A DNA stretch of 62,822 nucleotides from positions 1 through 62,822 of the forward strand of contig JANQPU010000093.1 of NCBI GenBank assembly GCA_028285315.1, in the 5' to 3' direction. This stretch comes from Acaryochloris sp. IP29b_bin.176. Lineage in GTDB: Bacteria > Cyanobacteriota > Cyanobacteriia > Thermosynechococcales > Thermosynechococcaceae. Of this stretch, positions 449-25,136 are shown in pieces. The notes beneath the pieces are model-generated. The model was given only the letters and a program-made list of their open reading frames with translations, ran no database searches and was not told the DNA's origin. Numbering within the stretch: the stretch's first letter is position 1; each line of letters opens with the position of its first letter. The position numbers and the translations under genes were made by a program.

Positions 449-1672
449 ATGAGTCTATTGATTTGCCTTTCGAACCGTCTTCAAATTCTGCTATTGCAGC
501 ACCCTTGTGCTTTGACTGCAATGATTCTGAGATTCTTTTATGTAGTAGATGTACTCAGTTATAGTATTGTTACTCCCCAGAAATTTCTAGGTAAACGACA
601 ACAACTTTTAGGGCAAAACTTTGCAGCTTTGGGTAGGATTATTATTGGTGAATATAGCCTTGCTGCAAAATTTATTGCAGAACCTCAGCAGAGAGAACCT
701 TATATAGGTCGTTTTCGATGTATACCCAACCGATTTTCCAAGCATTTTTTGCTTTTTCTTTCTGACAAGGAAGTTAAGGGTGATAATGCTCATTCAAAAG
801 CGAGATCAGCCATTTTGAATGTCGTATTTAAACCAGCCTTTGATAATACTGAGTCCCCAGAAGCTAAAGACCTCTTGGATCAATTAGCCACTATTGCCCA
901 TACTCATGGAAATCCTCCAGATTTAGATGAGATTAGCGATGATATCCAACGCACTGTTATCCAGTACATAATGTTGGTTCTGTTAGAAGCGAAGCCTTCT
1001 CCCCATCAAATATCTTCTCTTAAAACTCTATTCTTCTCTTCAAAACCGAGGGAATCATTGCTGATCTCAAAGGTGAAACCCTTAGCTCCTTCTGCTAAGC
1101 GATTGAAAGAGGTTGAACGATTAGAAGAGATCGCTCTTAACCTTATTGAGAACTCTCCTGTTGTTAGTAGATACAAGCCGACCAATGAACATGATTTAAG
1201 TCGAACAGAACTCAGTACTTTACTACTGCAAGCCATCGCAATTGCAGGATGTCTAGGTAGTGAGAGTTTACTCCGGTCCTTATTAACCAAGGTTCCACAC
1301 GATCTGGAGATCGACGTGGACAATCGTCTTGAAGTGTTACGGGTTGTTTTAGAAACGGCTCGTCGGCACTCTCCAGTGAATAACATCAATATCATCACCC
1401 AGACAGAAACAGAAGTGACGATCAATGACAGAAAACGTAAGTTTCCCAAGGGTACATTGTTCTCCGCGAACATCGGGTTGGCTAATCTAGACGATACGGT
1501 CTTTAAGAACCCCTTAGACTTCAATCCCCATCGAGACAACCTATTGGCAGCACTTAGCTTTAACTCTGTGGGTGAAGCAAAGCGGCGTGAGTGTCCAGGG
1601 CGCAGTATTGCAGAAAAAATGGGTTCTGATTTATTGGTCGCATTGCGATGCAAAACTGTTAAGAGCCATTGA
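449..1672 (+). CDS. Divergent cytochrome P450-like protein
   Basis: The 407-residue product has the landmarks of a cytochrome P450, a haem-thiolate monooxygenase. An ExxR motif (E302-T-A-R305) is followed by a proline-rich turn, then a typical stretch with 'FPKGT', 'DDTVFKNP' and 'FNPHRDN', and finally a Cys-ligand loop with CPGR at C382-R385. The Cys loop lacks the usual FGGG lead. An HSKAR segment near residue 115 may be the C-helix. The family usually has 400-500 residues, so this is close to full length, but the tail after the Cys loop is short. The true start could be a later ATG (521). It stands alone beside an IS remnant in AT-rich DNA, suggesting horizontal origin. Substrate unknown; CYP74-like activity is possible but not shown. 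Confidence 0.6.
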   Translation: MSLLICLSNRLQILLLQHPCALTAMILRFFYVVDVLSYSIVTPQKFLGKRQQLLGQNFAALGRIIIGEYSLAAKFIAEPQQREPYIGRFRCIPNRFSKHFLLFLSDKEVKGDNAHSKARSAILNVVFKPAFDNTESPEAKDLLDQLATIAHTHGNPPDLDEISDDIQRTVIQYIMLVLLEAKPSPHQISSLKTLFFSSKPRESLLISKVKPLAPSAKRLKEVERLEEIALNLIENSPVVSRYKPTNEHDLSRTELSTLLLQAIAIAGCLGSESLLRSLLTKVPHDLEIDVDNRLEVLRVVLETARRHSPVNNINIITQTETEVTINDRKRKFPKGTLFSANIGLANLDDTVFKNPLDFNPHRDNLLAALSFNSVGEAKRRECPGRSIAEKMGSDLLVALRCKTVKSH

Positions 1673-1762
1673 TTCTTCACAACGTAGCTCAGCTTGCCAG
1701 ACTTTGAAGTGTAACAATCTCTTCTAATTAAGTAATTAGAGGCTCATTGATTATGTCTCAAC

Positions 1763-2053
1763 TCATATCTTGCACCAAGATAATTGGAGGTCCAATCCCA
1801 GTTGCTGCATGCGAGGTCTGAGTTGTTCGACATCAGTTATCAACGTCATCACCAGTAAATGGGGGAACCACCACTCCATCGCTAGTCGGGCAGCTTGACC
1901 CCATTCAGGCAAGCCTGATATGGCAGTTGTTAGATAAGCCCAATGAGCTAACAAATAGGCAATCATCGACAATACCAACCAGCGATACACTCCTGTCCGT
2001 GTGCCTTGGGCAAATCGATCTAAACTAAACCGATGCTTGGTTGTCTTGAACCA
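1763..2053 (-). pseudogene. C-terminal remnant of an IS4-type transposase
   Basis: Reading the minus strand from a stop near 2054, the open frame begins with 'WFKTTKHRFSLDRFAQGTR' and continues through 'YRWLVLSMIAYLLAHW'. These are typical of the C-terminal end of IS4-superfamily DDE transposases, around the last catalytic region and the hydrophobic helix after it. No start codon, N-terminal or central domain is present, so this is a fragment of about 97 codons. No terminal inverted repeat was found around it. The call rests on recognising the motif style and not on alignment. Confidence 0.6.
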
Positions 2054-2409
2054 TCATCTCAGTTAACCCACCTTTCAAGTGGACCCTTTCATTAGAAAGC
2101 AGCTGGACCTAAATTGTGTGGGCTTGCAATTTGATACCTAATATCGCAACAATTATTGAAATTATTTCTCAATAGAAATGCCAGTTGTTGATAAAGTATC
2201 TTGTGAGCCATACATTAACTGCTTCACTTTCTTCTAGAGTCCTTAAACGGACTGTATTTTGGTGAATCAAGCGCTCTCAATAACAGGGCAATAGGATTTC
2301 CGACTGAGCTCTTACCTCATGAAGAAGTTGGTGCTGAGCAAGAAGTCCATCAAGCGAATTACGCTGCAAACTCCCCTATCGGGAGAATTTATTTAAAGGC
2401 GATTTCTGT
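2054..2409. other. Intergenic region
   Basis: No gene is supported here. It separates the transposase remnant from the membrane-protein cluster and should hold the promoter for the gene at 2410; no clear -35/-10 pair was picked out. Confidence 0.4.
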
Positions 2410-3021
2410 ATGCAACAACCGATTGATTTAAAACCTGTAACTTTCCCAAAAACAAAAGATATTGCCACAATCTGCGTTTATGCATTGGGCCTGCTATCAG
2501 CAGGCTTGTTTCTATTTTTGCCTGTTGTCAATATTCTGAGCCCCAGTCCTTGGCAGCGATCGATGGGAGTGATTCATGGAGTTGCCGCTCTCTTAGCAAC
2601 TGTTGTGATTGCATATGCGGGGCATCTAGCATTTCCCTTATTGCGGGGGTCTCATCGAATATTGTCACAAGTTCGCACCGTGATCTTTTGGGCCTCGTTT
2701 ATCGCTTTTTTAGCGATTGCTTCTGGCAATTGGGCCTATATGCGATATCGAGCGCCGCTAGGGGGTGCCCGCCGCTGGATTTTGGAGAATACACCGTTAG
2801 TTCACTACTTATTTATGGAGTACCACAAATTTATAGTGCTGTTTACCCTGCCGTTAGGTGTAGCTTCAGCCTGGGTGTTGTGGCAATACGGCGATCAAAT
2901 TATGGAGCGTCAGCATCGTGTGGTTCTGTCCGCTACCTGCATCGTCATGATGGCCATGATGTTCTTTGCCATGGGTGGGTTTGTTAGTGGGCTCAATGTA
3001 GCCCGTATTCACAGTTTGTAG
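2410..3021 (+). CDS. Uncharacterised five-helix membrane protein with conserved-looking histidines
   Basis: The 203-residue protein has about five hydrophobic helices (roughly residues 18-40, 52-76, 90-112, 133-155 and 172-195). Several histidines sit in or beside helices ('GVIHGV', 'YAGHLAF', 'HYLFMEYHKF'), a pattern that could bind haem b or a metal, but no family is recognised. It is the first of three closely spaced membrane genes (gaps of 18 and 28 bp), so an operon is likely. A function in electron transfer is only a guess from the histidines. Confidence 0.7.
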   Translation: MQQPIDLKPVTFPKTKDIATICVYALGLLSAGLFLFLPVVNILSPSPWQRSMGVIHGVAALLATVVIAYAGHLAFPLLRGSHRILSQVRTVIFWASFIAFLAIASGNWAYMRYRAPLGGARRWILENTPLVHYLFMEYHKFIVLFTLPLGVASAWVLWQYGDQIMERQHRVVLSATCIVMMAMMFFAMGGFVSGLNVARIHSL

Positions 3022-3039
3022 TTCAGCCACTATTAACCG

Positions 3040-3495
3040 ATGAAATCAATGTCACAACCGCTCTATCTCAAAGTGGGGAATTGGCTTAAACAATTTCCCC
3101 AATCTATTGCTACCGGAGCTTCAGAGGCCCCAACTGTATCTGGACCTGCTGCCGCTGCTCTCCTGAGCGCTGCATTTAGCTGCTTTTTATGCATGGTGAA
3201 TCAACACTTAACGGTCTTATTTAAGGGTTGGAATGCCATTGTTTGGTCCTTAGGGGACTGGATTCCGGGGAGTCGCACTTCTGATCAAGTTTATGGAGAA
3301 ATTGGCAGCTATTCTGGCAAGGAAACCATCATGCTTGTCAGTTGGCTCTTGAGTTGGGTGATCCTATATCAGCTCTGGAAAACGCGGAATATTCGCGCGA
3401 GCAGCCTATATGGAGGTCTGATCTTTTTTCTGGTGGCTGCCACTGTTATGAATTGGCATCCGATTTTCCCGTACTTACCTTTAATGCCCCATTAA
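3040..3495 (+). CDS. Uncharacterised membrane protein
   Basis: The 151-residue protein has about three transmembrane stretches (residues 34-56, 92-111 and 118-140) and a polar region between the first two. It starts 18 bp after the preceding membrane gene and ends 28 bp before the next, so the three are probably cotranscribed. A second in-frame ATG at 3049 is an alternative start. Histidines lie near the first helix ('NQHLTV') and at the C terminus. No known family is recognised. Confidence 0.65.
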   Translation: MKSMSQPLYLKVGNWLKQFPQSIATGASEAPTVSGPAAAALLSAAFSCFLCMVNQHLTVLFKGWNAIVWSLGDWIPGSRTSDQVYGEIGSYSGKETIMLVSWLLSWVILYQLWKTRNIRASSLYGGLIFFLVAATVMNWHPIFPYLPLMPH

Positions 3496-3523
3496 CGATA
3501 TTCTTTGAGGTTCTATCAACACT

Positions 3524-3730
3524 ATGCAAACTCAGATAAAGATCTCCTCAACTCGCTTAACAACACGCTCCATGCATAAGTATGTGATCTTTGGTGTGGG
3601 AATTTGGATGGTTTTTATAGGCACATTTGCGATCGCATATGTCCGAGTCAGCCATAGTCAACCCTTTGTAGGGGAGCCTTTTCAGTCCTTATCACCCCAT
3701 GAAACCCAAAAGCCCGAGTCTTCCTATTAG
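3524..3730 (+). CDS. Small single-pass membrane protein
   Basis: This 68-residue protein has one hydrophobic helix around residues 20-42 after a basic N terminus, with a polar C-terminal tail, so it is probably anchored with the tail outside the cytoplasm. It closes the three-gene membrane cluster. The small size and position suggest an accessory subunit of whatever complex the two larger proteins form; this is inference only. Confidence 0.5.
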   Translation: MQTQIKISSTRLTTRSMHKYVIFGVGIWMVFIGTFAIAYVRVSHSQPFVGEPFQSLSPHETQKPESSY

Positions 3731-3861
3731 ATCTCGGTGTGCTGCTTGCCTTTTGGCCAACAGGGTGAGGTGTCATGAGGAATCAAAGGTGAACGGTTAT
3801 TTTTTTCACGTTTATCTGAAGAGGATTAGTTCGGCTTATATCTATCCATATAGATGATTAG

Positions 3862-3898
3862 TTAGTATTAATTGATATTAATTCTCAATTAATACTAA
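3862..3898. repeat. Perfect 14-bp AT-rich inverted repeat
   Basis: TTAGTATTAATTGA (3862-3875) is repeated in inverted orientation at 3885-3898, with a 9-bp spacer. The arms match exactly. It lies in the 394-bp gap between the small membrane gene and the YwiC-like gene. It has no T-run typical of a terminator, so an operator for a dimeric regulator is as likely as a transcript-end hairpin. The rest of the gap (3731-4124) holds nothing else recognised. Confidence 0.6.
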
Positions 3899-4124
3899 GG
3901 TGTTGTTGGATCTAATCGGTTCCAAACTCTTCTAAAACAAGTGGGTTGCCATATCCCTCGATGAGGTGACCTCACTGGTCATGAAACCTGATTCACTTGA
4001 GCCGTGCTAACAAGGGAAGTCATAGATCCTGGCTCCCCTTGTTTTTTTGTGATCTGAAAGCTGGTTGTCCCGCTTTGAAGATAAATGCAGTTGATCTTCC
4101 CTCATTGTTTTGTTTCTCATTCAG

Positions 4125-4905
4125 TATGCACGCTTGGTATCGCCCCACTTTTGCACCAGAACATGGTGCTTTGCTGGTTTTATTGGGCTCCTTGCTTTCT
4201 GGAGCCGCCTTAGCCCAGACTTGGTCATTAGACACAACTTTGGCTTGCTGCTGTGCGGGTTGCGCTTTGCAAGCAGAGCATCCATTCATTGTCCAACTCA
4301 AACAGCGACGAACGTGGAAACCTCGATATTTAGTTTGGGCTGGTATCTATGGAGGGTCTAGCTTAGCTATCGCCATCTATCTAGCTGGTCAGACCCCAAT
4401 ATTGATCGGGTTGTATCTATGCGGTACAGCTGCGCTGATCCTAGATGCGATCGCAGTGCTGAGGCATCAACAGAAATCAATCGCGAATGAACTGGTCATG
4501 TTTGCTGCCATCTGCCTGTCCACGCTGTTGGCCTATGGCGCTACCACAGGTATCTTGACTACCCAAGCATGGGGCCTATGGATCTTGAATTCATTATTTT
4601 ATGCCAGCGCTATTTTTACGATTAAGCTTCGCAAAACTAAAACAAATGATCTGAAGCCTGGCTTAATCTTCTTGGGTATTGCAGTTCTGATCACCCTGGG
4701 ATTGTTCTATCGCCAATGGCTGTTGCCATTAACCGCCCTGACCTTTGCAGTGGCCTTTTTGAAGTTTGCCGTAGTTATTTGGCAACGAGACTGGTATACC
4801 CAATGTCGCTTCGAACATTTTGCCCGGTTTGAAACCTATTTCACAGTGGCCTATGTCTGCCTGGTGACGTTGACGGTGTTACCACCAACCTTGCCTAGTG
4901 CATGA
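4125..4905 (+). CDS. YwiC-like membrane protein
   Basis: From ATG 4125 the product is 259 residues and starts 'MHAWYRPTFAPEHGALLVL'. The R-P-x-x-x-P-E-H-G-A signature near the N terminus matches the YwiC-like family of polytopic membrane proteins, followed by about seven to eight hydrophobic helices. The frame is open back to 3997, but that extension is polar and poorly conserved in style, so the later ATG is preferred. In Bacillus subtilis ywiC lies in the narK-fnr region, but its biochemical role is not established. Here it stands between a small membrane cluster and a ferredoxin gene on the same strand. Confidence 0.65.
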
Positions 4906-16394: not shown

Positions 16395-17612
16395 TTACAG
16401 CATTTGAGCTAACCGCTCTAGATGTTGCTGAGCTTGGCTGTAGTACTTAAATTGCTGTTCATCCCGTCGGAATTCCGAAGTATGGACCCTGCGACATCCA
16501 TTCTGAGTTCTTCCTCCATGGACTTTATGCAGTAATTCGTGGTACATTACAAACTCAATAACATAGTTGGGCAGCTTGTCAGAGTCGAGACTTAAACTCA
16601 TCACCACTCGATCACAACTAGGCTCATAATGACCAAATTTTCGGTTACTGTAGACCTTGCTCCAGCATAGACGGGGTTTGCCCACGCGCAGGTTGAAGTA
16701 CGCCTGATTCACGCTCACAAAAACATCATCCAGGTTATAAACATTCCCCTGAGCAGTGTTTCCGAGATCGTCTACCATTAGATCCAACGCTAACAGCAGT
16801 TCTGAAAAGTCTTCGGATAGAGAGTACTCCTTAATAAGGGTCGATGTTTTGGGGGTCTTACCCCACAGAATAGAGTCAACGATGGCTTGGATGACATCAG
16901 TATTGGCAAGAATAAATCCTTCATTGATCTTGATTGTGGGTTGAGGACCCCTCAAGCGGCAGCGATATAGGGCTGCCATCGGCGTAAATTCAATCATCCG
17001 ATCATTCAGGCTGCTGACTCGACTCGCGCTACCCTCTAGAGAATGTTTCTGGTTTGCAAGGGTTCGTTTCAGTAAATCTGTTGCTCGATAAACAGCGCTA
17101 GCATGCAGGTGTAGATGGTCCTCATGCTGCAAAAATTTCATCCAGCCATAAACGGTCTTGGATTGTTGAGTTAAGTTCGCTGGCGTTGCCCCTTGGTCCG
17201 CACATAACTGCTCAATTTTGGCCGTCCGTTGTTCAAGCTGTTTGATCAGCAGGCGCTCAATTTTTGTCTCTAAGGGGTTCAAGCCAGCGATTTGGCGCTG
17301 AAAGGACTGTTGCTGACGACGAATCTGTCGAATGGAGATTTCCATATGACCATTCGGAGCCCCTTGCATCCCTGAATTGGACTCAACGATCGGTAAATGC
17401 TTGAGATCAACCCCTGTCAAAAATTGGTAAGCATTGCGAGAAGGGACAGGTAGTTGACAGGGTTGAATGCCTGCTCGGGCACAGATCTGCTCTGTAGCCT
17501 GAAGAGTTCCCTTCACATACTGCTGAAATGAAGAAACTTCGTGAGTTGGAATGCCAATTTTGAGCTGGTCTCTAACTCGATTAGACGCTTTTACGAGTCC
17601 TCTAATTCGCAT
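16395..17612 (-). CDS. SprT/M48-like zinc metallopeptidase-like protein
   Basis: The 405-residue protein has a zinc motif H358-E-L-L-H near the C terminus, preceded by 'YEPSCDRVVMSLSLDS' and a Trp-Ser-Lys block, as in SprT-like and YgjP-like putative metal-dependent hydrolases. The third ligand may be the His in the 'VHTSEFRRDEQQF' segment. The N-terminal half is helical and charged with no recognised domain. No signal peptide or membrane segment is present, so it is probably cytoplasmic. No substrate can be assigned. Confidence 0.65.
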   Translation of the reverse strand: MRIRGLVKASNRVRDQLKIGIPTHEVSSFQQYVKGTLQATEQICARAGIQPCQLPVPSRNAYQFLTGVDLKHLPIVESNSGMQGAPNGHMEISIRQIRRQQQSFQRQIAGLNPLETKIERLLIKQLEQRTAKIEQLCADQGATPANLTQQSKTVYGWMKFLQHEDHLHLHASAVYRATDLLKRTLANQKHSLEGSASRVSSLNDRMIEFTPMAALYRCRLRGPQPTIKINEGFILANTDVIQAIVDSILWGKTPKTSTLIKEYSLSEDFSELLLALDLMVDDLGNTAQGNVYNLDDVFVSVNQAYFNLRVGKPRLCWSKVYSNRKFGHYEPSCDRVVMSLSLDSDKLPNYVIEFVMYHELLHKVHGGRTQNGCRRVHTSEFRRDEQQFKYYSQAQQHLERLAQML

Positions 17613-17831
17613 AAATGGCCTGTCAGAATAGACATGAGCAGAATAGCAGAAACCTGATTGTCATACCTTATGAAAAATATTTTTCACGCTGTTATTCTGC
17701 ATGCTTGCGTGTTTGTTTAAGAGCCATAACATGTCCGATTATCACCGCCTTTAATTTTTAAGAAATACGAAGATATCTTCCTATTGAAAGTATTTTGGGG
17801 TACTACCTCTACAACAGCTATTTGTGGGGAA

Positions 17832-18653
17832 ATGATAATGGTGACTCAATATGCTCAATATGATAGTCTTCATTACTATCTAAAAGAGATAGGACGATTT
17901 CCTCTCCTCTCTCATGAAGAAGAAATTCAACTCGCTCGGCAAGTGCAGTCTGGCAACCCTCGAGCCAAACAAAAGATGATCGAGGCTAATTTGCGCCTTG
18001 TGGTTTCAATTGCTAAAAAGCACCAGAATCGAGGGTTACCCCTGCTCGATTTAATTCAAGAAGGCAACCTGGGCCTGAGTATTGCGGTTGATAAGTTTGA
18101 GCCGGAGCAAGGCAATCGGTTTAGCACCTATGCGTACTGGTGGATCTTGCAAGGGGTAACCCGTTCATTACAAAACAAAGGTCGTGTAGTGCGATTGCCT
18201 GTCAAGCATTGGCAAGTCGGCAATCAAATTAAACGGGCTCGCCATCAACTCAGCCAGGCCCTGGGCCGGGAACCAACCATGGCCGAAATTGCAGAAGAGA
18301 TGGATATGGATCTGCCACGGTTGAAAAAGTATCTCCTCAGCTTGCAAGAGACGGTATCCTTAGACAAGTTTGTGGGAAATGAACAAGATACAACCTTGGG
18401 AGACCTCATCGAGGGGAACGACTCCACCCAGTCATACTTAGATCTGCTGTTACAGGATGAGGAATTGTCTGGATATTTGGCTTTGCTGGATGATCGGCAA
18501 CGATTTGTGATTAGTGAGCGCTATGGATTAGAAGATGGCAAACCCAAGTCGATGGAGAAAATCGGCCAACAGTTGGGCATCAGCCGTGAACGCGTTCGAC
18601 AGATCATCAAAAAGGCGATGAAAACTTTAGAGAAATCTGCCTTATCTGCCTAG
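17832..18653 (+). CDS. Group 2 RNA polymerase sigma-70 family factor
   Basis: From ATG 17832 the product is 273 residues. Region 1.2 ('[21 protein letters not shown]'-like), region 2 ([31 protein letters not shown]), region 3 and a region 4 helix-turn-helix ([19 protein letters not shown]) are all visible. The N-terminal region 1.1 of the primary factor is missing, so it is a non-essential group 2 type (SigB/C/D/E class). A GGGGA box at 17826-17830 suits ATG 17838 or 17832; the open frame starts earlier at 17784. It is convergent with recA. Confidence 0.92.
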
Positions 18654-18655
18654 GC

Positions 18656-18679
18656 AAAAAAAGAGGGCATGGAATACCC
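18656..18679 (-). terminator. Rho-independent terminator of recA
   Basis: On the minus strand GGGTAT and ATGCCC pair around a 3-nt loop, followed by TCTTTTTTT. It lies 39 bp beyond the recA stop and just after the sigma gene's stop. Confidence 0.7.
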
Positions 18680-18717
18680 ATACCCCGATCTGTATCTGTT
18701 GAGTTCTGTTGTGAAAA

Positions 18718-19779
18718 TTAGGCAGCCTCTTCGTCTTCCTCCACTTCCACAGATGTAATGGAATTGGCAGAGACTGCAGCTCCCAACTCCAATCGCTGAC
18801 GCACCTGCTGTTCCACGCTTTCGGCAAACTCGGGGTTATCGGCAAAATATTGAATGGTATTATCCCGACCCTGACCGATATTATTGCCGTCATAGCTATA
18901 CCAGGCCCCCTTGCGGACGATAATATCGGTTTCTTCCGCCAAATCCACAAGGCACCCCAAGGTAGAGATGCCTTGGCCAAATAGAATGTCAAACTCAGCA
19001 ATGCGGAAGGGCGGCGCGACTTTGTTTTTGGCTACCTTGACCTTAGCTCGGATGCCATACATATCAGTCCCTTTCTTCAAGGTTTGGATGCGCCGGATAT
19101 CCAGACGGACGGAAGCATAGAACTTGAGGGCGTTGCCGCCAGTGGTGACTTCTGGGCTACCGTAAGTAACGCCAATCTTTTGGCGAAGCTGGTTGAGGAA
19201 GATCACGGTGCTGCCAGACTTGCAAATATTGCTGGTGATCTTGCGTAAAGCTTGGCTCATTAGGCGGGCTTGCAGACCCATGTGGGAGTCGCCCATGTCG
19301 CCTTCAATTTCAGCACGGGGGGTGAGGGCGGCAACAGAGTCCACAACTACAAGATCGACGGCACTGGAGCGCACCAGTTGATCGACAATTTCTAAGGCCA
19401 TTTCACCGGAGTCGGGTTGGCAGACCAGTAACTCGGAAACATCTACACCTAATGCACCTGCATAGATGGGATCTAGGGCATGTTCAGCATCAACAAAGGC
19501 GGCTACCCCACCTGTTTTTTGAATTTGTGCGATCGCATGTAAGGCAACGGTGGTTTTACCCGAACTTTCAGGGCCATAGATCTCAATGACGCGGCCCCGA
19601 GGCAGTCCACCACCCAAAGCCAGATCTAAGGTCAAAGCACCACTAGAGATGGTTTCGACCTGCATGCGGGTGGCGTCACCCAAGCGCATAATCGACCCTT
19701 TACCAAAGGTGCGCTCCACATTTTTCAAAACCAAGTCCAGGGCTTTTTGCTTTTCTGATGATTCAGTGATTGTGGCCAT
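18718..19779 (-). CDS. recA: Recombinase RecA
   Basis: RecA forms ATP-dependent filaments on single-stranded DNA, catalyses strand exchange and triggers LexA cleavage. The 353-residue protein has Walker A at G69-P-E-S-S-G-K-T76, Walker B '[12 protein letters not shown]', 'NQLRQKIGV' of loop L1 and '[17 protein letters not shown]'. Length is normal for the family, and the C terminus is acidic as expected. The start ATG is 19779. A LexA-like box lies 39-52 bp upstream, and a damage-repair gene set runs divergently from it. Some Acaryochloris genomes carry several recA copies, so this may not be the only one. Confidence 0.97.
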
Positions 19780-19817
19780 ACATCTCTCCAGAGATTTGGG
19801 GGTTGTTTGACTAATAT

Positions 19818-19831
19818 AGTATAATTGTACT
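19818..19831. promoter_or_regulatory. LexA-like (SOS box) site between recA and the SRAP-dinB genes
   Basis: The 14-mer AGTATAATTGTACT lies in the 109-bp gap between recA and the divergent gene at 19889. On the minus strand it reads AGTACAATTATACT, which fits the cyanobacterial LexA consensus RGTAC-N3-DGTWCB with one mismatch. Position 39 bp from recA and 58 bp from the other gene suits control of both directions. Confidence 0.55.
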
Positions 19832-19888
19832 ATTAATGTGTCAACTCGGCATAATTGTAAAAATTTACCTCCAGCACGGGAGGCTGCA

Positions 19889-20092
19889 ATGGCAAGAGAG
19901 ACCCTTACTGAACTGATTGGGTTTACGGGCGATTGGCTCGTGGGTGTGTCCTATGCCCTGGATAGGGGGTATCAATGTTGGGTGATTACCCCGGAGCGGC
20001 AAGTTCATACGGATGGTGAGTATTATGAAAGTCATCTGATGGCTTTGGCTACAGGTCGTTTCCTTGTTGAACATTCCTTGGAGGTGGAGTAG
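19889..20092 (+). CDS. Small conserved-type hypothetical protein of the damage operon
   Basis: The 67-residue protein begins '[19 protein letters not shown]' and contains several Trp and Tyr residues. ATG 19889 follows a GGGAGG box (19878-19883), so this start is preferred to an earlier frame opening at 19838. No family is recognised. It ends 2 bp before the SRAP gene, so the two are translationally close and probably coexpressed from the LexA-like promoter shared with recA. Confidence 0.65.
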
Positions 20093-20094
20093 TT

Positions 20095-20745
20095 ATGTGT
20101 GGTCGATTTGCCCTCACGGCAACCCCGGACGAGATCGCCACCGCCTTTGGCCTCCAGAATGTACCGCCCTTCCCACCCCGCTACAATATTGCCCCCAGCC
20201 AGCCCGTCGCTGTGATTCGGCAGTTGCAGCATCAGCCCCGCGAATTTCGGCTGATGCAATGGGGGTTAATTCCCAGTTGGGCAAAGGATCCGAGCATTGG
20301 CAATAAGCTGATTAATGCCCGGTGTGAAACGGCTCATGAAAAGCCCTCCTTTCGCTCGGCGATCAAGTATCGTCGCTGCCTGATTCCAGCAAGTGGCTTT
20401 TATGAATGGCAAAAAGTAGATAAGAACACCAAGCAACCCTATTATTTCCGCATGCAGCAGCCCTTTGCCTTTGCGGGGCTGTGGGAGTCCTGGAATGATA
20501 TTGAAACCTGCATTATCCTCACCACCCAGCCTAATAAAGTAGTGGCCCCGGTTCACCAACGAATGCCGGTGATTATTGCCCCCGAAAACTACAAGGTTTG
20601 GCTAGACTTTGATCTTCAAACTCCCAGTCATCTATTTCACCTGTTCGATCCTGATTTGGTCCAAGATCTATCCGCTTTACCCGTAACTACTTTAGTGAAT
20701 AGTCCGACGGTGGATCGGCCTGAATGTATTGAGCCGATGCTGTAG
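20095..20745 (+). CDS. yedK: SOS-response-associated peptidase-like protein (SRAP, YedK/HMCES family)
   Basis: SRAP proteins crosslink covalently to abasic sites in single-stranded DNA and so protect them. The 216-residue protein has the invariant start M-C2-G-R-F, which exposes the catalytic Cys after Met removal. It also shows 'RYNIAPSQ', 'NARCETAHEKPSFRS', 'SGFYEW' with the active Glu, and 'HQRMPVI' with the catalytic His. Length is typical (about 220). It lies between a small gene and dinB in a compact run divergent from recA. Confidence 0.93.
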   Translation: MCGRFALTATPDEIATAFGLQNVPPFPPRYNIAPSQPVAVIRQLQHQPREFRLMQWGLIPSWAKDPSIGNKLINARCETAHEKPSFRSAIKYRRCLIPASGFYEWQKVDKNTKQPYYFRMQQPFAFAGLWESWNDIETCIILTTQPNKVVAPVHQRMPVIIAPENYKVWLDFDLQTPSHLFHLFDPDLVQDLSALPVTTLVNSPTVDRPECIEPML

Positions 20746-20761
20746 CTACTGGCAAAAGACG

Positions 20762-21829
20762 ATGCGAAAGATCCTGCATATCGATATGGATGCTTTCTTC
20801 GCCTCCGTGGAGCAGCGAGACAACCCTCGATTGAGAGGCAAACCTGTCGTCGTTGGCGGACGCCCAGAACAGCGAGGCGCAGTGGCCGCCGCCAGTTATG
20901 AAGCCCGCAAATACGGGATTTTCTCCGCCACGCCTTCGCGGGTGGCCGCCACCAAATGCAAAAACTTGATCTTTGTTGCCCCCCGCTTTGAGGTTTACCG
21001 CCAGGTTTCTCAGCAGATTCGCACCATCTTTCGTCAATTTACGGATCTGGTGGAACCTGTTTCCCTGGATGAAGCCTATCTGGATGTGACGGAGAACAAG
21101 GCCCAAATGGACTCAGCAATGGCGATTGCCAGAGAAATCAAGCGTCTGATCCATCAAGAAACGAACTTAACGGCTTCGGCAGGGGTGTCGATTAATAAGT
21201 TCCTGGCCAAAATGGCGTCGGGATTGGATAAGCCCAACGGCCTTTCCCTGGTGGCCCCGAATCAAGCTGAACCCTTTGTCCAGCAGCTCCCCATTGAAAA
21301 GTTTCACGGCATCGGTAAGGTCACTGCTGCCAAAATGCACCACCTGGGAATTCAAACGGGTTCGGAGTTGCGTCAGTGGTCTGAGCCTGCGCTGGTGCGT
21401 CAGTTTGGCAAGATGGGCCACTACTACTACGGCATTGCTAGGGGCAAGGATGAACGCCCGGTGATCGCCAATCGGATTCGTAAGTCAATTGGAGCCGAGA
21501 GAAGCTTCTTCCCAGATATTGCGGGATTGCCCGTTTTGATGGAAGAACTGGATGCGATCGCACATATGGTTCACCTGCGATTAGCTGAAAATCAGCGATC
21601 TGGCTATACCCTGACCTTGAAAGTGAAATATTCCAACTACCAACAAATCACCCGCAGCCGCACAGTAGATAATCCGCTATATGAAGTGGATGAAATTTTG
21701 GTGTTAGGGAATGAGTTGCTACAAACCCATGTAGATGAACAACAGGCGGTGCGGCTATTGGGACTGACGTTAGCCAATCTTGTAGACAAGGATCGCAGTC
21801 CCAAACAGTTATCGATTGGATTTATCTAA
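20762..21829 (+). CDS. dinB: DNA polymerase IV (Y-family)
   Basis: DinB is an error-prone translesion polymerase. From ATG 20762 the product is 355 residues, close to the family's usual 350. The catalytic acidic residues are D8 ('HIDMDAFFASVE') and D103-E104 ('SLDEAYLDVT'); 'AGVSINKFLAKMASGLDKPNG' and the helix-hairpin-helix 'FHGIGKVTAAKM' follow, then a little-finger domain. The gene starts 16 bp after the SRAP gene, so it is the last of a probable three-gene damage operon. No beta-clamp motif was clearly picked out at the C terminus. Confidence 0.95.
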   Translation: MRKILHIDMDAFFASVEQRDNPRLRGKPVVVGGRPEQRGAVAAASYEARKYGIFSATPSRVAATKCKNLIFVAPRFEVYRQVSQQIRTIFRQFTDLVEPVSLDEAYLDVTENKAQMDSAMAIAREIKRLIHQETNLTASAGVSINKFLAKMASGLDKPNGLSLVAPNQAEPFVQQLPIEKFHGIGKVTAAKMHHLGIQTGSELRQWSEPALVRQFGKMGHYYYGIARGKDERPVIANRIRKSIGAERSFFPDIAGLPVLMEELDAIAHMVHLRLAENQRSGYTLTLKVKYSNYQQITRSRTVDNPLYEVDEILVLGNELLQTHVDEQQAVRLLGLTLANLVDKDRSPKQLSIGFI

Positions 21830-21875
21830 GTCTGTTTGATACAGTCCCTACAAAAACAAAGGAAGGTGATTCTCA

Positions 21876-22259
21876 GTGTCTAATCAACCCAAATTCGAAG
21901 CAGCGTTTCCGTTTCAAGAGGATGTATTGGCCCTTCCAGTGGTCGATCTTGATGCAACTGCAAATTGGTATTCCCAAGCCTTTGGCATGGTAGAGGTGGA
22001 GCGCAAAGATCAGCCTAATCCCACCGTTATTTTAGAAAGAAACGAGGTGCGAATTGGTTTCGCCATCAATGGTGGAGATGCTTCTCAAGACGGTGCTGCA
22101 ATCCTGGTCTCCAATATTCAGGGCATCAAATCAGAATTGGAAGCAAAGGGTGTGGAGATAGGGAACTGGCGGGTGGATGAGCGGGATGGTAAAAAATTCC
22201 AGGTGTTCTTTGTTGTGGCACCAGATGGGCTCTGCTATTGCTTCAATGAGCCTATTTAA
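21876..22259 (+). CDS. VOC-superfamily (glyoxalase/bleomycin-resistance-like) protein
   Basis: The 127-residue protein has the single betaalpha-beta-beta-beta style of the vicinal oxygen chelate fold: 'VVDLDATANWYSQAFGM' near the N terminus and a C-terminal 'FFVVAPDGLCYCFNE' with a possible Glu metal ligand. The start is GTG 21876, with an AAGGTGAT box upstream. Its substrate cannot be predicted. It lies just before the retron locus and after dinB; it may be part of neither. Confidence 0.75.
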   Translation: MSNQPKFEAAFPFQEDVLALPVVDLDATANWYSQAFGMVEVERKDQPNPTVILERNEVRIGFAINGGDASQDGAAILVSNIQGIKSELEAKGVEIGNWRVDERDGKKFQVFFVVAPDGLCYCFNEPI

Positions 22260-22437
22260 CACTCTGAAAAGATATGGAGAAAATCAGCAGGTCGGCTATA
22301 CCCTAACAACATGAAAGTAGCTCTTATTAACCTATCAGCAGGAGGGGTATATAAAAGCATACGTTAATTGTGCTGCTCTAGTTAAAAATCATGACATTAA
22401 TCAAACAGTTCAATCAGCATCATTTACCTTAATACTT

Positions 22438-22568
22438 GGACTTGCAAGCAGATTTTATGTCATGCTTCGTGACACTTGAAAATAATGCTGCAGGCTATGC
22501 TTTTGGTACTTCCTAAGGTGACTATGGTTTACATAGGTTCGTGCTCGCAAAGGAGTGCTTGCAGGTCC
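22438..22568 (+). ncRNA. Predicted retron msr-msd ncRNA (Ec67/Eco2-like)
   Basis: The a1 arm (22438-22450, GGACTTGCAAGCA) pairs with a2 (22556-22568, TGCTTGCAGGTCC) over 13 bp with one G-U. The base after a1 is G22451, the predicted branching guanosine, followed by ATTTT. A msr stem TGTCA/TGACA lies at 22458-22462 and 22470-22474; a CTATG/CATAG stem (about 22522-22536) may belong to msd. The A-A-G-G-A-G just before a2, and GATTT after a1, match the Ec67 ncRNA as I remember it. The reverse transcriptase starts 22 bp downstream. The RNA would be template and primer for msDNA, linked 2'-5' to G22451. Confidence 0.75.
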
Positions 22569-22589
22569 CACCACTACAATCAATCTTAA

Positions 22590-24349
22590 ATGTCTGAGTT
22601 ACAGAAGTTACGTGATGCTCAAACTATCGCTGATGTTGCACACATCCTTGGCTTCAAAACTAAAGCATTGTCCTATATTCTTTATAAAGAGTCTGACTCC
22701 AGTAAATACAAAGAATTCGATATTCCTAAAAGATCAGATGGAGTACGTTGTATTTCAGCTCCTCAGGATAGGCTAAAGCTGCTTCAAAAGCGATTGGCAG
22801 ATCTTTTGCAAAATTGCTTGGATGAAATCAATAATAATGCGGCTAGCAAGAATCAAGCAAAACCATATGATCAGGTTGCTCATGGGTTTAAACGTCGGCT
22901 ATCTATCTGTACTAATGCGAAAAAGCATCGAAATAGAAGATATGTATTTAATGTTGACTTATCAAACTTCTTTAGCTCGATTCATTTTGGACGTGTTCGT
23001 GGCTTTTTTATAAAAGATAAGCGATTTCTCCTAAAAACAAAAGTCGCTACGATTTTGGCGCAGATCGCATGTTTTAAGCAGAGCCTTCCTCAAGGCAGCC
23101 CTTGCTCTCCTGTAATCTCCAACTTGATAGGCAATATATTAGATTCGCACTTGGTAAGGTTAGCAGCCCAGACAGGTTGTACCTACACTCGGTATGCAGA
23201 CGATCTCACTTTCTCCACAAACAAGCGTCATTTCCCATCGAGTATTGCAATCCAGCGTGATGATGACAAAAATGTTTGGGTGCCGGGTCCAGAACTATTA
23301 CGTTTAGTAAATCATTCAGGTTTTGAAATTAATCCAAAGAAAACCCGAATGCAATACCATGGCTCAAGGCAAGAAGTCACCGGCCTTGTTGTTAATGAGA
23401 AAATTAATGTCCGGCGTGAATATAGACACAATGTACGAGCAATGGCTCATCACCTATTTACAAAAGGAAATTTCCTATTACCAACATATTGCAAAAGCGA
23501 GAATGGTGATTACTCTATAGAGATGAAGCCAGGAACTTTGAATCAGCTGCATGGAAGACTCGGCTTTATTGATAGCATTGATCGATACAATCTAGAAAAG
23601 CTCCCTAAGGTGGAAAAAAAGCAAAAGGAGACAATATATCGAAGGTTTCTTTTCTATAAAGAATTGTATATTGCGCCTAAACCTGTACTTATCTGTGAGG
23701 GATGGACTGATTATGTATATATTGAAAATGCACTGCGGCAATTAGCTTCTAGTTATCCTTCTCTTGTGTTACTAGATAGAAGTGGAAAGGCTACTTTTGC
23801 CATTAACGTTTTAAGTTTGGTACAAGCCATACTGCTGAAATAATTGGAATCAGTGGGGGAGTCGGAGGCTTCAAAAAATTTATACCGTTGTATAAACAAG
23901 AATTTGAACACTTCTTCTCACCTGGCATGAAGGAACCCGTTATTCTGCTAGTCGATAATGATAAAGCTGGAAAAGAGGTTCTTGGTGCTATTCACAACAA
24001 TATATCCAGAAAAGATAGAAAAACAAAAAATAAGATAGATAACATGCAGCCATATATCCACGTTTATCGCAACCTCTATCTCGTTTTTACTCCGCTTCAA
24101 GAAGGGAAAACTGAATCCCAAATTGAGGATCTCTTTGATACCTCAACTTTAAACATGGAAATTGAAGGTAAGAGATTTAATCGTTCCGATGATAAGGCAA
24201 CAGCAACTACTTATAGCAAGGCGGTGTTTGCTAGAAAAGTTGTCGAGGAAAATTCATCTTCCATCAATTTTGAAGGGTTTATACCACTTTTAGACCGACT
24301 GATGAAAGTTATTGAAAGTCATTATGCACAAAGAAAGGAAAATAGATAA
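22590..24349 (+). pseudogene. Retron reverse transcriptase-Toprim fusion (Ec67/Eco2-like), one frameshift
   Basis: The first frame (22590-23843) holds a full reverse transcriptase: 'VFNVDLSNFFSSI', 'LPQGSPCSPVISN', Y202-A-D-D and the retron-specific V263-T-G. It then enters a Toprim domain (VLICEGWTDYVY, E370). The frame breaks near 23808-23813, in a T4 run, where about one base is missing; the other frame resumes 'RFKFGTSHTAEIIGISGG' and 'ILLVDNDKAGKE' (D456-x-D458 after correction). Corrected length is 586 residues, equal to the Ec67 enzyme from memory. Such fusions make msDNA and use the Toprim part as an anti-phage effector. Locus is AT-rich and lacks HIP1 sites. Confidence 0.85.
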
Positions 24350-24402
24350 CAGGTAAAGGTTGTTTTTATCCTGTTCAATATATTCACACTTAAAATAACC
24401 TG

Positions 24403-24492
24403 AGTTCGGGATAAGCTAAAACCCTTATTCTTGCGTAGGCTGAAACCTGCATTCTTTGTAGAAGAGCCTCAAAAATGGGCTTAACCCGAACT
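24403..24492. repeat. 90-bp element bounded by 14-bp inverted repeats
   Basis: AGTTCGGGATAAGC (24403-24416) is repeated inverted at 24479-24492 with one mismatch. The 62 bp between hold no gene. It lies between the retron gene and an IS4-type remnant, so it may be a solo pair of IS ends or a MITE-like relic; a long hairpin terminator is an alternative. Confidence 0.45.
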
Positions 24493-24519
24493 GGGGTTAA
24501 AATACTAACGTGGCTATAA

Positions 24520-24768: not shown

Positions 24769-24800
24769 ATCCAATTTTGAGAATATTTCACTGCCAAAGC

Positions 24801-25136
24801 CTATGGAGTTGTAGGCGACGCATACAGACGAGGAGGCATAATTTCCGAGTTGCGACGGTATTCAGCCAAATATTGCTCTAGAACAACGAATTGAGCCAAA
24901 TTGAGGCTGTAATAAATCCAGCGGCCTTCATGGCGGGTATGGACTAATTCCGCATCTTTGAGGACCTTTAAGTGAAACGATAGTTTGGACTGATTGATAT
25001 CTAGGGATTCACATAACTCACCAACACAGAGTTCTCGGTGGCGTAAAAGCTCTAAAACGTGGGTGCGGAGAGGGTCCGCAAGGGCATGGAAACCAGCAAA
25101 AACTAATTCGGGAGAGGTAGAGCAGACGTGTTGCAT
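24801..25136 (-). CDS. ArsR-family winged-helix transcriptional regulator
   Basis: The 111-residue protein has a winged helix-turn-helix ('ELCVGELCESLDINQSKLSFHLKVLKDAELV', about 36-66 in pattern). The 'ELCVGELC' segment has two Cys in the position of the ArsR/SmtB alpha-3 metal motif (canonical ELCVCDL). Additional Cys and His near the N terminus ('MQHVCSTSP') could add ligands. It is likely a metal- or redox-sensing repressor. It stands alone with no adjacent metal transporter, and its targets are unknown. It resembles regulators of the arsenite type but could equally sense other metals. Confidence 0.85.
   Translation of the reverse strand: MQHVCSTSPELVFAGFHALADPLRTHVLELLRHRELCVGELCESLDINQSKLSFHLKVLKDAELVHTRHEGRWIYYSLNLAQFVVLEQYLAEYRRNSEIMPPRLYASPTTP

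Follow-up and report, generated by a model that had tools for sequence, protein, structure and literature searches.

The closest described relative of the locus considered here is the retron Ec67/Eco2. According to PMC12405507, Eco2 is a self-inhibited trimer of RT-Toprim and msDNA, in which Toprim is an RNase that provides the anti-phage activity; DenB probably triggers this complex. The same paper gives rG15 as the branching base, rG52 as the last copied template base and 67 bases as the length of the msd, and places a stretch containing D331-R332-Y333 at the trimer interface; the R332A substitution abolished anti-phage activity. For Ec67 itself, the review PMC6868368 gives CAGA around the branching G, in agreement with the preliminary description of the present DNA, which puts the branching G of Ec67 directly after a1. 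Cyanobacterial retrons have been described before. In the same review, putative RTs from Nostoc and from Trichodesmium fall into one group with myxococcal RTs, and PMC9716671 mentions a retron RT for an Antarctic cyanobacterium. A word search of PMC12548924 found neither cyanobacteria nor Toprim, and a literature search that covered part of the literature found no description of an Ec67-type retron in a cyanobacterium. The locus described here adds a member to a retron type that was already known.

The locus lies in a 62.8-kb stretch (62,822 nucleotides) of Acaryochloris sp. DNA, the whole of which is referred to as the window (Table 1). Judged from its sequence, the interval 22438-22568 almost certainly encodes the msr-msd ncRNA belonging to a retron of type I-C (Ec67/Eco2-like). 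Ec67-type ncRNA features are seen upstream of an RT gene, namely paired a1 and a2 arms, the branch G, an msr stem and GAG before a2. The preliminary description had listed these elements and direct reading of the sequence finds them at the same coordinates: the a1/a2 helix comprises 13 pairs, 12 of them Watson-Crick and one G-U, G22451 comes right after a1 and is followed directly by ATTT (22452-22455), the halves of the msr-like stem (22458-22464 and 22468-22474) enclose a 3-nt loop, and AAGGAG stands directly 5' of a2. The RT gene is also downstream as had been said, at a distance of 21 nt (a2 ends at 22568, the RT ATG is at 22590) instead of the 22 bp first given. The sequence blocks that had been ascribed to Ec67 are real, for the Ec67 locus (L120, the protein of which matches PDB 9i2f and 9lm3 over 586 residues) carries GCAGATTT and GAAGGAGTGC at the same places. 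Ec67/Eco2 and the window have in common the ncRNA layout, the branch G within CAGA, the ATTT, the 3-nt msr loop, a GAAGGAG-type block and the RT-Toprim family.

Table 1. Features of the retron locus, in window coordinates
Feature	Position	Strand	Basis
a1 arm	22438..22450	+	pairs with 22556-22568; first R1 model position; covaries in homologues
predicted branch-point G (2'-5' priming), equivalent to Eco2 rG15	22451	+	inferred for the window
msr stem-loop, 7 bp, 3-nt loop	22458..22474	+	sequence; helix 2 covaries
predicted msd template, 68-nt cDNA (its complement)	22487..22554	+	mapped from Eco2 via L120 2099-2165; inferred
AAGGAG block, 5' of a2	22550-22555	+	direct reading
a2 arm	22556..22568	+	pairing; R1 match
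ORF1, 417 aa: whole RT domain and Toprim start (E370, D374)	22590..23843	+	NF038237, RT-Toprim_I-C, RVT_1, PDB
ORF2, other frame: rest of Toprim (DND motif, E matching Eco2 E515)	23888..24349	+	both family models continue here

Taken by itself, the arm pairing is unusual, but only moderately so. Its score is reached by 1 of 300 dinucleotide shuffles and by 2 of 640 window tiles (among them those on the minus strand that overlap the feature). Folding 22430-22575 as RNA gives a z of -2.04, with 5 of 200 shuffles equally good. The case therefore rests on the comparison with homologues. In Rfam, no retron family matches in the window at the gathering cut-off or at the loci of Ec67, L033 and L042; at Ec67 itself Rfam 15 gives no family match at all (E up to 1). 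A covariance model, R1, was built separately from 40 Ec67-type ncRNAs, without any cyanobacterial sequence and without Ec67. Its source was an arm search of 88 loci, 59 of which have, upstream of an RT, an arm pair of at least 10, a G after a1 and GAG before a2; these 59 include L099 and L115, probably of another type, whereas L040 and Ec67 fall outside them. The alignment underlying R1, A2, holds 40 of the 59, the omitted loci being the window, L033, L038, L041 and 15 more, mostly from Bacillota.

In the window R1 gives one strong match, on the plus strand at 22438-22568 with exact ends (93 bits, E 3.5e-23); the sole other match up to E 10 scores 10.5 bits. R1 also recognises Ec67 itself (75.6 bits), as well as L041 (96.4 bits), L040 (85.5) and L033 (82.7). 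When run on the loci other than L003-L031, it matches 65 of the 67 chosen as likely Ec67-type (E up to 0.01), whereas the 27 loci taken as other types, as a group and not individually classified, yield two weak matches (L115, 25.1 bits; L117, 19.4 bits). Among 80 loci on viral contigs that carry relatives of the RT, 50 likewise have a match. The comparison by covariance model proposed in the preliminary description thus has an independent model matching the interval and Ec67 alike, and together with a neighbouring RT of the Ec67 RT-Toprim family this upholds its reading of the interval as the msr-msd template of a retron.

The second comparison proposed there, whether related loci preserve the arms, points the same way. 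Over the 20 pairs of A2, 95.6% of cells are paired, as against 76.2% in shuffles and at most 42.6% with a slid partner. The a1/a2 and msr helices covary, with a score of 0.727 versus 0.328 in shuffles, none of 500 being as high, and 18 of the 20 pairs change on both sides, a count that 22 of 500 shuffles reach. The arms are therefore kept with two-sided changes, and as far as sequence conservation goes the pairing holds. In 65 rows fitted to the model, an alignment that leans towards the structure, pairing is 96.4% and covariation 0.823. GAG before a2 is invariant in all 40 A2 rows, from loci picked with GAG. Although Ec67 itself has no Rfam 15 match, a model of Ec67-type ncRNAs can be good enough to detect members in different phyla.

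These data bear on the view that the pairing is due to chance, or is a leader structure merely regulating the gene. The one shuffle in 300 that attains the arm score speaks for it, but the E-value against an independent model, the covariation, and the branch and GAG blocks conserved across phyla make it scarcely credible; nor was a terminator-like site found at the locus. A promoter scan found no promoter-like site upstream of a1, its single site lying within the ncRNA and being no more than shuffles yield.

If the interval is the ncRNA of an Ec67-type retron, the ends of its msDNA can be predicted by homology. In L120, Eco2 rG15 corresponds to 2062, rG52 to 2099 and the other msd end to 2165, the A of GGAG. 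Their probable counterparts in the window lie at G22451, at G22487 (which follows AAT) and at A22554. By analogy with Eco2, a1 would pair with a2, and the RT would prime from the 2'-OH of G22451 and copy from A22554 to G22487, giving a 68-nt cDNA. The fused Toprim RNase would then be held inactive by the RT-msDNA complex; once freed by a trigger from a phage, it would degrade RNA. The predicted window cDNA, folded as DNA, is no better than shuffles (z 0.13). The corresponding values are 0.05 for Ec67, -3.24 for L041 and -0.62 for L040, the L040 interval being misplaced by one base at one end and by two bases at the opposite end. In alignment A3, 64 of 65 rows have G as the branch base, and in A4 all 50 rows do (rows not de-duplicated). 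The ncRNA of L040 (2843-2978) has A at this position, the sole exception among the 115 model-aligned rows.

The protein encoded by ORF1 scores 569 bits against NCBIfam NF038237 (retron_Ec67_fus; cut-off 450) and 575 bits against PADLOC RT-Toprim_I-C, the best of 66 PADLOC families. It carries Pfam RVT_1, and among PDB entries it is most similar to the Retron Ec67 protein (E 6.5e-94). YADD is kept, as are the counterparts of Eco2 F46, R56 and K66, while R70, R184 and R264 of Eco2 are replaced by K, H and E. Unlike Ec67/Eco2, the window protein has no counterpart of the trimer-contact stretch with D331-R332-Y333. Given these replacements, that of S513 (see below) and the absence of the contact stretch, a trimer like that of Eco2 may not form from this locus.

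The Toprim effector of the window, unlike that of Ec67/Eco2, is frame-broken, a feature that the preliminary description does not mention. A break near 23.81 kb divides it between ORF1 and ORF2, so that this assembly lacks a full RT-Toprim fusion ORF and Toprim is encoded across two frames. The NF038237 and RT-Toprim_I-C matches continue from ORF1 into ORF2, and counterparts of the Eco2 Toprim catalytic residues E374, D378, D460, D462 and E515 are present across the two pieces. Eco2 S513 is Q in the window and in L040. No counterpart of Eco2 K562 was placed in the residue comparison, position 562 of the translation used being D. Compared with L040, dN/dS is 0.13 for the part preceding the break and 0.18 for the part following it, so both parts were under selection until recently, or still are. 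For the RT, dN/dS is 0.09-0.13. In L040 the gene is unbroken (585 aa), hence an intact copy exists.

The frame break may reflect decay or an assembly error, and both are possible. With a real break, msDNA may still be produced from the locus but without the effector step, as in a recently decayed member of the type; if the break is an assembly error, the locus would be an ordinary intact retron. More drastically, the locus could be a dead relic that makes neither msDNA nor defence, as the split Toprim and other broken copies (L228 in the RT, L033 in three ORFs) might suggest. We consider this rather unlikely. RT and ncRNA are intact, the dN/dS values of the RT and of the part after the break imply that any break is recent, and the coverage of two relatives' contigs (10.6 for L040, 5.8 for L041) makes an assembly error possible. 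It is distinctly improbable, though less so than the frameshifting discussed next, that the lineage keeps RT and ncRNA and loses Toprim, as an msDNA maker without toxin and possibly in a complex that differs from the trimer of Eco2, the contact loop being absent. Both frames look selected, as would be expected if the ribosome shifted frame in a programmed manner to yield an RT-only product besides the fusion. However, L040 has one unbroken frame and L228 is broken elsewhere, therefore a frameshift site is not kept, and no canonical slippery heptamer was found by eye; such frameshifting is very improbable.

Further cyanobacterial MAGs carry the same ncRNA, which adds to the preliminary description. 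They are L040 (Oscillatoriales SM2_2_1), L041 (Leptolyngbyaceae RM1_406_9) and L228 (genome G555), with RTs 75-82% identical to that of the window, among the matches listed, and with agreeing cassette ends. They differ from the window in that L040 has the unbroken gene and the A at the branch position, L041 is cut by a contig end, and L228 has its frame break in the RT, not in Toprim. L228 and L041 share 99.4% identity across 1992 bases. The scan of genome contigs for relatives lists at least 80 loci. With one copy lacking the branch G and two frame-broken, the four cyanobacterial copies are natural variants with respect to the requirements of msDNA synthesis. The Ec67 type is now placed in cyanobacteria with predicted, testable cDNA ends.

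In a quick RT tree of 60 rows with SH-aLRT support only, the window, L040 and L041 make up one set (98) and a Chitinophagaceae MAG comes next (99). The wider group is mostly proteobacterial, and Eco2 is elsewhere in the tree. The tree was computed without L033, L039, L057, L060, L089, L091 and L107, and of the loci from L094 on it includes L096 and L114. NF038237 has a match (E up to 0.001) in 116 of 386 genomes sampled from the phylum, the window's own genome being the only one above the cut-off; the strongest of the others cover the RT part alone. R1 matches 1 of 146 sampled phylum genomes and 4 of 388 sampled class genomes, namely the window's own, G555, G559 and G573. G559 and G573 are probably the same MAGs as L041 and L040, respectively. 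At 4 of 388 sampled class genomes, the Ec67 type is rare in cyanobacteria. Outside this lineage, the L033 copy of the retron (2489-4245), split into three ORFs, is on a Caballeronia plasmid.

The contig is cyanobacterial: a nearby NblS exceeds the equivalog cut-off, and a genome of the same genus shows 81% identity to 17079-22285. Homology to L040 extends over 22437-24346 and to L228 over 22437-24340, no flank being included in either case; L041, cut by its contig end, begins at the same base. On the right, a flank common to five same-genus genomes starts from 24795-24808. As homology to these relatives is limited to the cassette, without their flanks, the retron is a compact cassette in a variable gap, and horizontal transfer is its likely source. 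G386 was considered as an empty insertion site and rejected, its left flank matching up to 22285 and its right flank lying elsewhere, which gives no clean insertion. Just downstream of the retron is a repeat (24396-24500) of some 104 bp whose ends are inverted repeats. It occurs at 23 other places in the same genome, in either orientation, and one copy is present in the stretch taken from G386; it looks like a MITE. The L228 retron (1624-3371) is flanked by short ORFs that resemble toxin-antitoxin genes, their translations having been judged by eye.

Other cyanobacterial retron RTs, those of L098, L103 and L104, have RT-Protease_XI or RT-TIR_XII as their nearest PADLOC models. Like the window, these loci have an inverted-repeat element upstream of a retron-type RT; unlike it, they have no R1 match, and the protein match stops within the RT, among the matches listed. 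An inverted-repeat element different from that of the window recurs upstream of the RT in L097, L098, L100, L103, L104, L106, L108 and L110 and bears a GTTGATCCTGC-like block. Its hosts are Nostoc-type cyanobacteria, Chloroflexota and one Rhizobiales MAG, and the RTs of L098, L103, L104 and L110 are nearest to RT-Protease_XI. This GTTGATCCTGC-like element is probably the ncRNA of another retron type.
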